Source: Saccharospirillum mangrovi
GTDB taxonomy: Bacteria > Pseudomonadota > Gammaproteobacteria > Pseudomonadales > Natronospirillaceae
Assembly (NCBI RefSeq): GCF_003367315.1
Contig: NZ_CP031415.1
Location: 928,001-992,000 of the forward strand
DNA length: 64,000 nt
Direction of reading: 5' to 3'
In this document: positions 1,801 to 53,471 of the stretch, in pieces
How the letters are laid out: each line of letters opens with the position of its first letter
Numbering within the stretch: the first letter of the stretch is position 1
Position numbers and translations under genes: made by a program
The notes under the pieces: model-generated
What the model saw: the letters and a program-made list of their open reading frames with translations, nothing else
Told to the model about the DNA's origin: nothing
Databases searched by the model: none

Positions 1801-2046
1801 GGGCGTCGCTTTAGGTGGTAAGGCGTCCCAGCGGTAAGGTCCAGGCTGCACATCCGTGTGCAGCCGTAAAACCGAACAGGAAGCATGCTTCCTAAGCGTT
1901 CGGTTTTACCCTGCCCCCGCTACCAATTGAGATGTTGTTTCTTTATATAAGGAAACAACATTTCCGGAATTCTGCGGAATTCCAGGGTCTTCGGACCACC
2001 GGGAGCCAGAGGGCCTCCCGTAGCATAAAGAAGTCCATCGGACTTC
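1801..2046 (+). other. Array of consecutive hairpins between tRNA-fMet and rimP
   Basis: This stretch has no plausible gene but is almost entirely made of inverted repeats. The arms are: 1807-1813/1819-1825 (closed by GGG/CCC at 1801-1803/1827-1829); 1844-1852/1857-1865 (perfect 9 bp, TCCG loop); 1866-1877/1898-1909 (perfect 12 bp enclosing a 16-nt palindrome at 1878-1893); 1932-1941/1952-1961 (30-nt near-palindrome); 1966-1972/1977-1983; 1986-1989/1994-1997 (TTCG tetraloop); 2000-2005/2015-2020; 2030-2036/2040-2046. It should be transcribed with the tRNA and rimP. Processing, attenuation or a separate small RNA are all possible. To my knowledge Rfam has a rimP-leader family; I cannot test whether this matches it. 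Confidence 0.75.
1910..1927 (+). repeat. 18-bp direct repeat, copy 2 (duplicated tRNA 3' end)
   Basis: This is identical to 1776-1793, the 3' end of the initiator tRNA including CCA. No 5' half of a tRNA precedes it: the matching acceptor strand, D arm and CAT anticodon arm are all missing. It is either the remnant of a second tandem tRNA gene or the distal boundary of a small element inserted at the tRNA end. Confidence 0.9.
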
Positions 2047-2052
2047 AGCATT

Positions 2053-2077
2053 AAGCCCCTCATGCAGGGGCTTTTTT
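2053..2077 (+). terminator. Terminator/attenuator upstream of rimP
   Basis: AAGCCCCT (2053-2060) pairs with AGGGGCTT (2066-2073) around a 5-nt loop, followed by T to 2077. It lies between the tRNA and rimP with no obvious promoter after it. It therefore probably releases part of the transcripts and sets the tRNA to mRNA ratio. Confidence 0.88.
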
Positions 2078-2751: not shown

Positions 2752-4245
2752 ATGAGCAAAGAAATTCTTCTGGTCGTGGACGCGGTAGCGAACGAAAAGG
2801 GTGTTTCCCGGGAAGTCATTTTTGACGCCATGGAACTCGCTTTGGCCGCTGCGGCCAAGAAGCGCTTTGACGACGAAGGCGAAGCGGACATTAAGGTAGC
2901 TATTGACCGTCTTTCTGGTGAATACGAAACCTTCCGCCGCTGGACCGTCACCGCGGACGATGTCGTGCCGCTGCTGGGTTCCGAGTGGACCGTCGAAGAA
3001 GCGCACGAAGTCGACAAGACGCTGCAACCGGGCGATGTCTACGAAGAGAAAGTGGAAAACGCCGGCTTTGGTCGCATCAGCGCCCAGGCCGCCAAACAGA
3101 TTATCGTGCAGAAAGTGCGCGAAGCTGAGCGCGCGAAAATTGTTGAGCAATATCGCGAACGTGTCGGCGAAATGGTGTTGGGTACGGTTAAGAAAGTTAC
3201 CCGTGACAACATCATTGTCGATCTGGGTAACAACGCCGAAGCCGTATTGCCGCGTGAAGAAGTCATCGGTCGCGAAACTTTCCGCATCGGCGATCGCGTG
3301 CGTGCAGTACTGCAAGGCGTGCGTGCCGAAGGCCGTGGCCCGCAGTTGGTGTTGAGCCGCGCCAGCAACGAAATGCTGATCGAATTGTTCCGCATCGAAG
3401 TGCCAGAAATTCAGGAAGAAGTCATTGAAATTCGTGGCTGCGCTCGCGACCCGGGTTCACGTGCCAAGATCGCTGTGAAAACCAACGATGGCCGAATTGA
3501 TCCGGTCGGCGCTTGCGTCGGTATGCGCGGTTCGCGCGTTCAGGCGGTGTCGAACGAACTGAACAACGAACGCGTCGACATCATCTTGTGGGACGACAAC
3601 CCAGCGCAGTTGGTGATCAACGCCATGGCACCGGCCGAGGTCGCTTCCATCGTGATGGACGAAGACACCCACACCATGGATGTCGCGGTCGCTGAAGACA
3701 ACCTGGCCATCGCCATCGGCCGCAGCGGTCAGAACGTGCGTCTGGCCAGCGACCTGACCGGCTGGACCATCAACGTGATGACCGAAGCCGAAGCCGGTGA
3801 AAAACAGGAAGCCGAAGCCGGCGAACTGGTGCGCTACTTCGAAGACAAACTCGACGTCGATGAAGACATTGCGCTGGTGCTGGTGGAAGAAGGTTTCACC
3901 ACCGTCGAAGAAGTGGCTTACGTGCCGCAGGAAGAATTCCTCGCCATCGACGGTTTCGATGAAGACATTGTTCAGGAACTGCGTCAGCGCGCCAAAGACG
4001 TGCTGTTGACCCAGGAACTGGCCAGCGAAGAACAGCTGGACTCCGCAACCCCGGCAGAAGATTTGCTGACCTTGGAAGGCATGGACGATCTGTTGGCTCG
4101 CACTTTGGCGACCAAAGGCATTTGCACCATGGAAGATCTGGCAGAACAAAGTATCGATGACCTGATGGACATCGACGGAATGAACGAAGAGCGCGCCGGT
4201 CAATTGATCATGGCAGCACGGGCGCCTTGGTTTGAAAACGACTAA
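2752..4245 (+). CDS. nusA: Transcription termination/antitermination factor NusA
   Basis: This 497-residue protein matches E. coli NusA in length and domain order. It has an RNA-polymerase-binding N-terminal domain (1-125), an S1 domain (about 137-195, [20 protein letters not shown]), two KH domains ([14 protein letters not shown] and [16 protein letters not shown]), and two acidic helical repeats after about residue 365. NusA promotes pausing, Rho-independent termination and rRNA antitermination. The C-terminal repeats mark the gammaproteobacterial form, which binds the RNA polymerase alpha CTD and NusG. It lies 47 bases after rimP and 19 before infB. Confidence 0.98.
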
Positions 4246-4264: not shown

Positions 4265-6859
4265 ATGGCAGAAGTCACCGTTAAACAACTGGCGGAGAGC
4301 GTTGGTACACCCGTTGATCGTTTGTTGAAACAGATGAGCGATGCGGGTCTGCCGCACCAGTCGGAAAGCGACGCCGTCAATGACGACCAGAAGCAGACCC
4401 TGCTGACCTTTTTGAAAAGCAGCCACGGCGAAAATGGCGACAGCGCGCCGAAGAAAATCACCTTGAAACGCAAGGTGACGACGCAGCTGAAAACCGGCGG
4501 TTCAGCACGGGGCAAGACGGTCAATATCGAAGTGCGCAAGAAGCGCACTTACGTTAAACGCGACGTTGAAGACGCCGTAGAAAACGGCGCGCCGGTTGAA
4601 GAAGCCGCAGCACCGGAAGCCGCCGCTGCACCGACGACGGCCAACAACGGCGCCAGTCGTCGTGCCGAAGAAGACGCCAAACTGGAAGCGGCGCGCCTGC
4701 GCGATGCCGAAGAAAAGGCACGCGCCGAAGCCGAACGCAAAGCTGCAGAAGCGGCGCGTCAGGCCGCTCAAGCTCCGGACGAGGAAGAAGATCCGCAACT
4801 GGCCGTTGCCGACGCCGAAGCCAAAATGGCGAAGGAAGATCGCACTTCCGAGAAGAAAAAACACAAGACTGAAAAACCGGTTCGGGTCGACGATGGCCCG
4901 GCTGGCGACAGCCGTAAAGCCGGTCACAAAAAAGGCGGCAAAAAAGCCGAAGTGGCGCAGCGCACGGTCAGCGGTCGTGGCAACAAACATCAACAGATGT
5001 TGTCGGTGTTGGACGAAGGTGACGGTGACGGTTTTGGCCGTCGTCGTCGTCGTAAATCCAGCAAGCGTCGCGATCACCAGTTCGAACGTCCGACCGCGCC
5101 GGTCGTGCGTGAAGTGCAACTGGGCGAAGCCATCATGGTGGCCGACCTGGCGAACCAGATGTCGATCAAAGCCGCTGAAGTGGTCAAAGTCCTGTTCAAG
5201 ATGGGTGTGATGGTCACTGTGAACCAGAGCATCGATCAGGACACCGCCATTCTGGTGATCGAAGAAATGGGTCACAAGTACGCCGTGGTGAACGAAAACG
5301 CCATGGAAGACGACGTGATGGAAGTGACCTACGACGGCGAAGAAACGCCGCGTGCTCCGGTCATCACCGTCATGGGTCACGTCGACCACGGCAAGACCAG
5401 TTTGCTCGACCATATTCGCCGTACCCGAGTGGTCGCGGGCGAATCCGGTGGTATTACCCAGCACATCGGCGCGTACCACGTGAAGACCGACAAAGGCATG
5501 ATCACCTTCCTGGATACCCCGGGACACGCGGCCTTTACCGCCATGCGTGCACGCGGTGCTCAGGCGACTGACGTGGTGATTCTGGTGGTGGCCGCAGACG
5601 ACGGCGTGATGCCGCAAACTGAAGAAGCCATTCAACACGCCAAGGCCGCCGGTGTACCGTTGATCGTTGCCATCAACAAGATGGACAAAGAAGAAGCCGA
5701 TCCCGATCGCGTCACCAACGAATTGTCGCAGCGCGATGTGATTCCGGAAGCCTGGGGTGGCGACACCCAGTTTGTTCAGGTGTCGGCCCACACCGGCCAA
5801 GGCATTGACGAACTGCTCGACGCCATTCTGCTGCAAGCCGAAGTGCTCGAACTGAAAGCACACGCCACTGGCCCGGGTAAGGGTGTGGTGGTGGAATCCA
5901 GCCTCGACAAAGGCCGCGGTGCGGTCGCGACGGTACTGGTTCAGTCCGGTCTGTTGCGCAAAGGCGATGTCGTACTGGCCGGTTCTTACTACGGCAAAGT
6001 GCGTGCGCTGCTGGACGAAAACGGTCAGCAGGTCGAACAAGCCGGCCCGTCCATTCCGGTCGAAATTCTCGGCCTGAACGGCACGCCGGACGCCGGTGAC
6101 GACTTCGTGGTCGCTGAAAGTGAACGCTCCGCACGTGAAGTGGCGGAAATGCGATTCGAGCGCGCCAAGGAATCCATCCAGGCGCAGCAGCAGGCGGCCA
6201 AACTCGATGCGCTGTTCCAAGGCATGGGGTCGGACGAACAGCAGAATCTCAACGTCGTACTCAAAGCCGACGTGCGCGGTTCGCTGGAAGCCATCAGCGC
6301 CTCCTTGCAGAAGCTGAGCACCGACGAAGTGAAGGTGAACATCATCGCCAGCGGCGTGGGTGCGATTTCCGAATCCGACGCCAACCTGGCGATTGCCGCC
6401 GGTGCGGTGGTGTTCGGTTTCAACGTGCGTGCCACCGGCAAGGCTCGGGATGTGATCGAAAGTGCCGGTCTGGATCTGCGTTATTACAACGTCATCTACG
6501 ATCTCATCGACGACGTCAAAGCCGCCATGAGTGGTCTGCTGTCGCCCGATCTGCGCGAAGAGATCGTCGGTCTGGCCGAAGTGCGCGATGTGTTCAACTC
6601 GCCGAAATTCGGTCAGGTGGCTGGCTGTATGGTCATCGAAGGCACTGTCTACCGGAACAAGAAAATCCGTGTTCTGCGCGACGAAGTCGTTATCTTCGAA
6701 GGCGAGCTGGAATCGCTGCGTCGCTTCAAGGACGACGTCCAGGAAGTGCGTCAGGGTATGGAGTGCGGTATCGGTGTCCGCAACTACAATGACGTCAAAG
6801 CTGGCGACAAGATCGAAGTATTCGACGTTAAAGAAGTTGCTCGCAGCATCGAAGACTGA
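4265..6859 (+). CDS. infB: Translation initiation factor IF-2
   Basis: This 864-residue GTPase places the initiator tRNA on the ribosome. An N-terminal IF2_N helix bundle (1-50) is followed by a long, charged, Ala/Glu/Lys-rich linker, a second IF2_N domain (about 285-335) and the G domain. The G motifs are GHVDHGKT at 371-378, DTPGH at 417-421 and NKMD at 471-474. The C-terminal domains that bind fMet-tRNA end the protein. The ATG follows GTAGGAGGAATCC, an excellent ribosome binding site. The gene sits in one operon with the initiator tRNA its product recruits. Confidence 0.98.
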
Positions 6860-6913: not shown

Positions 6914-7309
6914 ATGGCCAAAGAGAACAGTCGCCTGCGCCGCATTGGCGATCAGATGCAACGCGATCTGTCAGTGCTGATTCAGCAGGAAGTCAAAGAC
7001 CCGCGCCTGGGCATGGTGACCATTAATGCGGTCAAGGTCAGCCGCGATCTGTCCTACGCCGACATCTATTTCACCTGCATGGCCTTTGGCGACAACGCCG
7101 AAGCCGAACAGCAACGCGCCGACCAGGAAGCGGTGTTGAACAAGGCCAGCGGCTTTTTGCGCTCCATGCTGGCGCAGGAAATTCAGCTGCGCGTTATGCC
7201 GCAACTGCGTTTTCATTACGACACCGTGCTGGAAACCGGCACGCGTCTGACTGGTCTGATCGACGAAGCATTGCGTCAGGACCAGGCCCGTCATCGGGAC
7301 GACGACTGA
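6914..7309 (+). CDS. rbfA: 30S ribosome-binding factor A
   Basis: This 131-residue KH-fold protein is needed for late 16S rRNA 5'-end maturation and cold adaptation. Family signatures are RRIGDQMQRDLSVLIQQEVKDP near the start, VSRDLSYADIYFT, and RVMPQLRFHYD before the C-terminus. Its length is close to E. coli RbfA (133). The ATG is preceded by TAGGTAATCCT. The last codons and the stop lie inside a perfect hairpin (7295-7318), which may couple translation end to RNA structure. Confidence 0.97.
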   Translation: MAKENSRLRRIGDQMQRDLSVLIQQEVKDPRLGMVTINAVKVSRDLSYADIYFTCMAFGDNAEAEQQRADQEAVLNKASGFLRSMLAQEIQLRVMPQLRFHYDTVLETGTRLTGLIDEALRQDQARHRDDD

Positions 7310-7346: not shown

Positions 7347-8276
7347 ATGGCAAGACGCAAAAAAGGTCGCCCGCTCGACGGCGTTATTCTGGTCGATAAA
7401 CCCGATGGCTGGTCGTCCAACGCTGTGCTGCAAAAAGTACGTTGGCTGTTCCAGGCACAAAAGGCCGGCCACACCGGCGCGCTCGATCCGTTAGCGACTG
7501 GCCTGTTGCCGATCTGTCTGGGCGAAGCCACCAAGTTCAGTCGTTTTCTGCTCGATGCCGATAAGGCCTACCGCGCCACCGCACGCTTGGGCGTAACCAC
7601 CGACACACTCGACGCCGAAGGCGAGGTGACTCAAACCCGGCCGGTGCCTGAACTCAATCGCGACGCGGTTGAACGGCTGCTGGCGGAGCGCTTCACCGGC
7701 ACCATCGAACAGGTGCCGCCGATGTATTCGGCGCTCAAACGCGACGGTCAGAAACTCTACGATTTGGCGCGCCAGGGCAAAACCATCGAGCGCGAAGCGC
7801 GGCCCGTGCAGATTTTCAGCCTGACGCTGGTCGAACTCGTCGGCGATGAGATGGTGCTCGACGTGCATTGCTCGAAAGGCACTTACATCCGCACCTTGGT
7901 CGGCGACATTGGCGAAGCCCTGGGCTGCGGCGCGCACATCACGGCGCTGCGACGCACCCGCCACGGCCGCTTCGATCTGCGCGATGCGCAACGGCTCGAT
8001 ACCTTAATCGAACGCCAGGAAGCGCAGGGCCATGAAGCCTTGGACGAATGGTTGCTGCCGCTGTCATCGTTGTTGGTCGATTTACCGCAAATCGAACTCA
8101 GCGAGGCACAGGCGCGGCGCTTTTGTCACGGCAATCCGGTCAGTCATTTCACTTTGTCGCAGCCGTTGACCGGTCTGGCGCAGGCGGTTTGCGACGGGCG
8201 TTTTCTCGGTGTCGGTGAACTCAGCGATGACGCTGGCCTGCAGCCGATTCGGCTGGTGGTCAGCCCGTCCGATTGA
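7347..8276 (+). CDS. truB: tRNA pseudouridine(55) synthase
   Basis: This 309-residue protein makes pseudouridine 55 in the T loop of tRNAs. The catalytic aspartate is D47 in GHTGALDPLATGLLP. VPPMYSALKRDGQKLYDLAR and CSKGTYIRTLVGDIGE are the other family motifs, and the C-terminal part is a PUA-like RNA-binding region. Length matches E. coli TruB (314). It lies in the conserved position between rbfA and rpsO. The ribosome binding site is weak. Confidence 0.97.
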   Translation: MARRKKGRPLDGVILVDKPDGWSSNAVLQKVRWLFQAQKAGHTGALDPLATGLLPICLGEATKFSRFLLDADKAYRATARLGVTTDTLDAEGEVTQTRPVPELNRDAVERLLAERFTGTIEQVPPMYSALKRDGQKLYDLARQGKTIEREARPVQIFSLTLVELVGDEMVLDVHCSKGTYIRTLVGDIGEALGCGAHITALRRTRHGRFDLRDAQRLDTLIERQEAQGHEALDEWLLPLSSLLVDLPQIELSEAQARRFCHGNPVSHFTLSQPLTGLAQAVCDGRFLGVGELSDDAGLQPIRLVVSPSD

Positions 8277-53119: not shown

Positions 53120-53466
53120 GCGAGCTGGCCAGGCAGTCGCCGCTTCGAAAGAAGGGGAGGAAAGTCCGGGCTCCATAGGGCAGGGTGCCAGATAACGTCT
53201 GGGCGGCGAAAGCCGACGGAAAGTGCAACAGAAAGGAAACCGCCGTTCGCTTGCGAGCGGTAAGGGTGAAAAGGTGCGGTAAGAGCGCACCGCGGCTCTG
53301 GTAACAGAGACGGCGATGGTAAACCCCACTCGGAGCAAGGCCAAATAGAGTCCCACACAGGCGTGGCCCGCGCCGGGACCGGGTAGGCTGCTTGATCCTG
53401 ACGGTGACGTCAGGGCTAGATGAATGACTGTCCACGACAGAACCCGGCTTATCGGCCAGCTCGCCT
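53120..53466 (+). ncRNA. rnpB: RNase P RNA, bacterial type A
   Basis: The conserved blocks of M1 RNA are all present in order: CAGTCGCCGCTTCG, GAGGAAAGTCCGGGCTCC, ATAGGGCAGGGTGCCAG, GTAAGGGTGAAAAGGTGCGG, TAAGAGCGCACCG, GGAGCAAGGCCAAATAG, GGGTAGGCTGCTTGA, and AGATGAATGACTGTCCACGA with ACAGAACCCGGCTTATCGG. The terminal helix pairs 53120-53130 with 53454-53464 over 11 bp. Length is about 347 nt (E. coli 377). It is the catalytic RNA that removes tRNA 5' leaders. Minus-strand open frames here are meaningless. Confidence 0.98.
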
Positions 53467-53471
53467 TTTTT
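53454..53471 (+). terminator. rnpB 3' end and T tract
   Basis: The closing helix strand of RNase P RNA is followed by six T (53466-53471), which probably ends transcription. Confidence 0.65.

Follow-up and report, generated by a model that had tools for sequence, protein, structure and literature searches.

A probable composite 5′ leader uniting a tRNA-fMet-derived repeat unit with tandem terminators before rimP-nusA-infB in Saccharospirillum

Results

The window, a 64,000-nucleotide stretch of the single-contig Saccharospirillum mangrovi genome (3,686,911 bases), carries tpiA, secG, tRNA-Leu(gag), a terminator-like site, a promoter-like site, tRNA-fMet, a spacer, rimP, nusA, infB, rbfA and truB in that order. 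ARAGORN placed tRNA-Leu(gag) at 1488-1574 and the initiator tRNA-fMet, which occupies the metY position, at 1715-1791 on the + strand (64.1 bits with the Rfam tRNA model). Between them lie the terminator-like site (1579-1601) and, 5′ of tRNA-fMet, a sigma-70-like promoter, TTGAAA-17-TATAAT (1637-1665, + strand), recognized by consensus only at 11 of 12 positions. The open reading frame list and Pfam identified rimP (2234-2704), nusA (2752-4245), infB (4265-6859), rbfA (6914-7309) and truB (7347-8276), all on the + strand; with tpiA and secG, these are the seven neighbouring proteins that Pfam named. The nearest named relative in a rimP search was Saccharospirillum sp. MSK14-1, whose rimP is 96% identical, although the source genome's own record was possibly absent from that search. 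Elsewhere, the window holds a ribosomal S15 leader (RF00114; 8343-8466, 52.3 bits) and a class A RNase P RNA (53121-53467, 338.6 bits).

A sequence-only reading of positions 1801-2077 had described a dense run of stem-loops 3′ of the initiator tRNA. This run is present and goes beyond chance: the predicted fold of 1792-2080 reaches -133.6 kcal/mol (z -8.9), where 200 dinucleotide shuffles give -88.1 kcal/mol (sd 5.1). In five other Saccharospirillum species, the segment that runs from the first CCA to the upstream terminator T1 likewise folds below shuffles (z -4.3 to -7.2; 60 shuffles each, with genome G003 represented by the part on one contig). The hairpin run is real, structured and conserved within the genus, and its structure is kept beyond a single strain in six Saccharospirillum species. 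The individual stems named in that reading could all be located, among them a near-palindrome given as 30 nt that spans 36 nt. A consensus scan of 1200-2800 bore out the absence of a second promoter, its only hit being the 1637-1665 site, which lies upstream of the tRNA and outside the spacer. As to the statement that the interval has no open frame, three mechanical open reading frames of 40, 47 and 72 codons (minimum length 40) begin and end inside about 1906-2124. The conservation of the spacer is of the RNA-pairing type. That reading did not mention that 18 nt of the tRNA 3′ end are duplicated exactly, that the upstream half is a tRNA-derived repeat unit, or that a second terminator lies at 2150-2200, outside the interval.

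Repeats at the tyrT locus of Escherichia coli have a layout in which a copy of the tRNA 3′ end stands at each border of a unit. Here, the 18 nt at 1776-1793 (16 nt of the tRNA plus two bases; direct-repeat family D2, + strand) recur without mismatch at 1910-1927. This exact duplication makes 1794-1927 a 134-bp unit bounded by tRNA 3′ ends and closing with the copied end, which is the tyrT/rtT layout. Within the unit, a tRNA-like core (1830-1925, + strand) begins AGCGG and terminates CCGCTACCA, comprising an acceptor-like AGCGG/CCGCT pairing, two arms and an ACCA end, and its acceptor-like ends are closed in the predicted fold. The 5-nt acceptor complement inside the unit was matched by 268 of 500 shuffles, and it is so common among them that it means nothing as evidence by itself.

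Counterparts of the core are present in MSK14-1 and G003, and comparing these three sequences with the arms aligned by hand revealed three unpaired cells overall. The perfect 9-bp arm (1844-1865, + strand), which occupies the anticodon-arm position, shows one double-changed pair and two unpaired cells across the three species. In the place of the T arm, the perfect 12-bp arm (1866-1909, + strand; 1866-1877 pairing with 1898-1909 around an inner palindrome at 1878-1893) varies in sequence among the species while its pairing is kept, with 5 of its 12 positions (7-11) double-changed and one unpaired cell, in MSK14-1. At E values up to 0.01, the unit body was matched in only the source genome, MSK14-1 and G003 among 22 family genomes.

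In its own genome the unit has no second copy, the only other matches being 27 nt or shorter. A dispersed palindrome family was rejected on this ground and because the 14-nt core of the 9-bp hairpin occurs at just one other place in the genome, which does not make a repeat family. A second perfect hairpin sharing the core GCACATCCGTGTGC with the 9-bp arm lies at L007:1501-1521 (genome 771494-771514). ARAGORN saw no complete cloverleaf in the unit, calling only 1488-1574 and 1715-1791 in the window, and the Rfam tRNA model, whose sole reported tRNA match was 1715-1788, left the unit unmatched. Near-hits to the Rfam families asX2, SpF51, sR14, Sernc389, YrlA, mir-5856, mir-5984 and RsmV fell far under their cut-offs and were dismissed as chance.

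We compared the unit with RtT RNA, known from the tyrT repeats (Bosl & Kersten 1991, as cited in PMC4986893), which the cited passages of PMC4986893 describe as being released from tRNA transcripts and affecting the stringent response. As at RtT loci, the unit stands 3′ of a tRNA gene with copies of that tRNA's 3′ end at its borders; three of the four top RtT loci in other Gammaproteobacteria are bounded in this way (by tRNA-Gln, -Tyr and -Ser ends), and RtT locus units are 150-194 nt long. The unit differs from RtT in its length of 134 nt, its other hairpins, its initiator tRNA, its position inside an mRNA leader and the lack of a model match. The RtT model (RF00391) matched in 50 of 274 class genomes, with 18 over the cut-off. 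It gave no match at the locus, none at E values up to 0.5 in ten related loci that carry fMet units, and 0 in the source genome, where 11 of 181 candidate places were scored. Given the shared layout and the absent model match, the unit may work like RtT yet stand outside that family. Separately, at L181, two tRNA-Ser-tail units follow a tRNA-Ser gene, and the second contains a hairpin, TGCACATGGATGTGCA, that resembles the 9-bp arm of the window.

All 22 genomes of the family sample have rimP, and tRNA-fMet adjoins it in 17, counting G016, where the contig end truncates the tRNA. A unit is borne by 9 of these 17 fMet-rimP spacers (G000, G001, G002, G003, G005, G010, G012, G014 and G017), a count that includes G003 with its two contigs and a copied tail of just 12 nt and that may miss more degenerate units. 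Spacers with a single unit include those of G001 (78 bp), G005 (80 bp) and G014 (93 bp); G012 (Salinibius) has two units of 84 bp and G010 three of 83 bp. The most extensive array, in G017, lies upstream of rimP at L168:467-1180 and consists of six identical 102-bp fMet-tail units in tandem together with 86 bp of a seventh. Of the six Saccharospirillum species, G004 lacks a unit ahead of rimP, and G001 and G005 carry one of another kind, which makes the window-type unit dispensable.

Arrays also stand behind fMet genes away from rimP, as in G004 with three units and G010 with two, so it is the tRNA gene, not the operon, with which they are associated. In a set of loci that is not a random sample, the 400 nt downstream of each gene were examined for a tRNA fragment of at least 28 bits (real tRNAs masked). 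Such a fragment was present for 14 of the 70 distinct fMet genes and for 3 of the 76 tRNA-Leu genes; one of these three Leu genes is itself a pseudo-fMet that ARAGORN labels Leu. A reversed tRNA gave 0 for both. A stricter test for tail copies, covering the window and 80 rimP loci, found them after 5 of 41 tRNA-Met and 2 of 60 tRNA-Leu genes, and a shuffled tail gave 0. Arrays of fMet-derived repeats in these bacteria had no description among the matches listed from the open-licence literature.

Some fMet copies are themselves easily mistaken for genes. A degenerate copy in a tandem array of G004 (L044:785-875) was called tRNA-Leu(caa) by ARAGORN, and pseudo-tRNAs of this kind may be annotated as real tRNAs. 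Other copies (L149-L155, L081 and L126) have their anticodon arm swapped for a similar stretch, CTC..CTCTT..GGCGCAGCCGCTGAAGGTCG. This altered-anticodon form of fMet pseudo-tRNA occurs in 5 of 390 genomes of the order, in 4 families, with 0 for a reversed-pattern control. That distant families share the replaced-arm sequence points to transfer or to strong constraint. The unit in the window does not take this form.

Folding differs among units. Compared with 100 mononucleotide shuffles, single-unit folds scored -4.4 for the window, -2.7 for G017, -1.1 for G001, -0.8 for G005, -0.4 for G010 and 0.4 for Salinibius. The last four fold no better than shuffles, which argues against one stable fold common to all units. 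That four of the six units tested behave in this way would suit a neutral relic, that is, a functionless, decaying tandem duplicate of the tRNA gene re-amplified by unequal exchange. So would the variation of unit length and content across the family (78 to 216 bp tail to tail), the occasional tail copies after tRNA-Leu (2/60), and the six identical copies in one array, as recent unequal exchange would give. Against such a relic, window-type arms stay paired through double changes in three species, and spacer folding is well below shuffles in six. We therefore regard a functionless relic as possible but somewhat doubtful, and prefer to read the unit, as part of a probable composite leader, as a tRNA-fMet-derived repeat that is folded tRNA-like and ends in CCA.

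Downstream of the unit, the + strand continues into a series of hairpins and two terminators. A long near-palindromic hairpin (1929-1964; arms 89% complementary) is a candidate RNase III or processing site, and other hairpins take the same place in other species. A 7-bp hairpin, GGAATTC/GAATTCC (1966-1983), also occurs in MSK14-1. Three further hairpins precede the upstream terminator: hairpin A (1986-1997), the TTCG-capped GGTC-TTCG-GACC; hairpin B (2000-2020), whose stretch GCCAGAGGG is unchanged in 6 of 6 Saccharospirillum species; and hairpin C (2030-2046). T1 (2052-2077; stem 2052-2074) is a GCCCC..GGGGC terminator with a T run. T2 (2150-2200), the general rimP-leader terminator (GGGC..GCCC with seven T) on an extended stem, is directly preceded by another hairpin at 2130-2149.

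Across 49 pairs of hairpins A, B and C, T1, the pre-T2 hairpin and T2 in six Saccharospirillum species, 95.2% were paired, a percentage biased upward because almost the same alignment had served to derive the structure. For so few and related sequences, double changes are a stronger sign than percentage paired. Already present in the unit arms, they also occurred here, in 9 pairs and 13 cells; 0 of 500 shuffles reached these values (shuffles gave 3.5 pairs), and sliding the structure by 1-3 columns left 1-4 double-changed pairs. Five of the nine pairs fall in T2 (97.9% paired), three in hairpin C (85.7% of cells paired) and one in hairpin B (100%). Neither hairpin A nor the pre-T2 hairpin (91.7% of cells paired in each) has any. 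Most T1 pairs are invariant and none is double-changed, so that T1 has no covariation support.

The two terminators resemble a known element. In the cited passages of Naville & Gautheret 2010 (PMC2965389), the rimP-leader of several Gammaproteobacteria carries tandem terminators, a GGGc..gCCC terminator and, upstream of it, an inverse CCCg..cGGG terminator; NusA is named there as the best candidate regulator, its expression repressing the operon. The present locus likewise lies in the 5′ leader of rimP-nusA-infB. T2 (2150-2193 followed by seven T) ends 33 nt before rimP, fitting the GGGc(...)gCCC stem with a U stretch that is expected 4-130 nt ahead of rimP. T1, GCCCCTCATGCAGGGGC, fits the inverse CCCg(...)cGGG motif, with a C-rich 5′ arm and a G-rich 3′ arm, though C instead of g follows CCC. 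By pattern, T1 was recognized in 72, T2 in 63 and both in 57 of 79 rimP spacers, representing 80 rimP loci minus one with too little upstream sequence.

An assignment to the rimP-leader family held up in layout but not in score: the Rfam model RF01770 aligned to 2022-2200 with 19.1 bits (E 1.8), and the gathering cut-off of 47 was not reached. Among 20 related loci searched, Marinobacter L088 alone passes that cut-off. The locus departs from the described rimP-leader also in its longer T2 stem, in extra hairpins 5′ of T1 and in the tRNA-derived unit further upstream. Taken together, the downstream half is a divergent rimP-leader, and the upstream half is a tRNA-derived repeat of known layout that fits no Rfam family.

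We also considered whether the GAGGG loop of hairpin B pairs with the CCCUC of the T1 5′ arm as an antiterminator, the alternative to the upstream terminator that a rimP-leader would have. Loop and arm are invariant in six species, and in Reinekea T1 is again preceded by G-rich loops. The complementarity, however, does not exceed dinucleotide shuffles: when this one pairing was tested in 19 of the 22 family spacers (three lack T1 by pattern), which are non-independent, 1 of 19 gave p<0.05 (Fisher 46.3, 38 df). An antiterminator of this design is unlikely.

Discussion

We propose that the locus is probably a composite 5′ leader of the Saccharospirillum fMet-rimP-nusA-infB operon, built from a tRNA-derived unit, hairpins and the T1/T2 pair. 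By analogy with E. coli and the work cited above, the fMet promoter would drive one transcript containing the tRNA, the unit, the hairpins, T1 and T2. The tRNA ends would be trimmed as for any tRNA. In the first module (1794-1927), the copied 3′ end and its CCA would be cut by tRNA-processing enzymes, and the unit would probably be excised along with the tRNA. The second module (1929-2046) comprises the hairpins kept in structure, the longest of which (1929-1964) may receive an RNase III-type cut that would separate the tRNA side from the mRNA. In the third, T1 and T2 would set read-through into rimP-nusA-infB, with NusA as the most likely and simplest regulator, feeding back on that read-through.

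The sequence-only reading is partly supported. Its suggestion that the run is an attenuation or processing leader of rimP-nusA-infB holds up, and the terminator pair is already described both in the rimP-leader and, as t1/t2 with RNase III sites, in E. coli metY; its suggestions that the leader senses NusA or IF2 levels, or that a stable small RNA is released with the tRNA, are conjectural. In the cited passages on the E. coli metY-nusA-infB leader (PMC6511841), the initiator tRNA likewise precedes the rimP operon, t1 and t2 stand before rimP, and the tRNA is released through RNase III cleavage. According to the same passages, E. coli has a P2 promoter on the 3′ side of metY, where the consensus scan finds none here; they mention no tRNA repeat unit, unlike the present leader. 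A further parallel is the Bacillus cereus pseudo-tRNA tRNA-Other, described in the cited passages of PMC3399842 as a tRNA derivative that does not serve translation and has been proposed to form part of a larger regulatory RNA. Its locus differs in flanking a genomic island and in carrying a Trp anticodon.

One could go further and see in the fMet units a separate class of CCA-ended tRNA mimics, selected and matured with the tRNA, that titrate or report proteins binding the initiator tRNA. Candidates for such proteins would be RNase P, the CCA enzyme, TruB and IF2, the last two encoded downstream of the leader. If this were true, the leader would couple initiator-tRNA processing to the making of IF2. 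The occurrence of units behind rimP-unlinked fMet genes, and the folding of several no better than chance, speak against such mimics, which we consider very improbable. Least probable of all is a remnant of an integrative element that had its attachment site at the tRNA 3′ end: a direct repeat of that end does flank a short insert, but just 116 bp separate the repeats, no integrase is among the seven neighbouring proteins checked (tpiA, secG, rimP, nusA, infB, rbfA and truB), and the relatives' units hold much of the tRNA itself and are arranged in tandem, unlike att-flanked islands.

Returning to the composite leader, its terminator-pair half is already known, and its tRNA-derived half is a repeat of a little-studied kind. 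The former extends the rimP-leader by additional hairpins and a T2 stem with covariation, which the Rfam model misses. As for the latter, repeats bounded by tRNA 3′ ends are best known from E. coli tyrT/rtT; in several gammaproteobacterial families they have arisen behind initiator tRNA genes as well, in the present case within the leader of an operon for core transcription and translation functions. Related species with none, one or six copies at the same place make testable an old puzzle, whether such repeats are useful RNA or a by-product of gene duplication.
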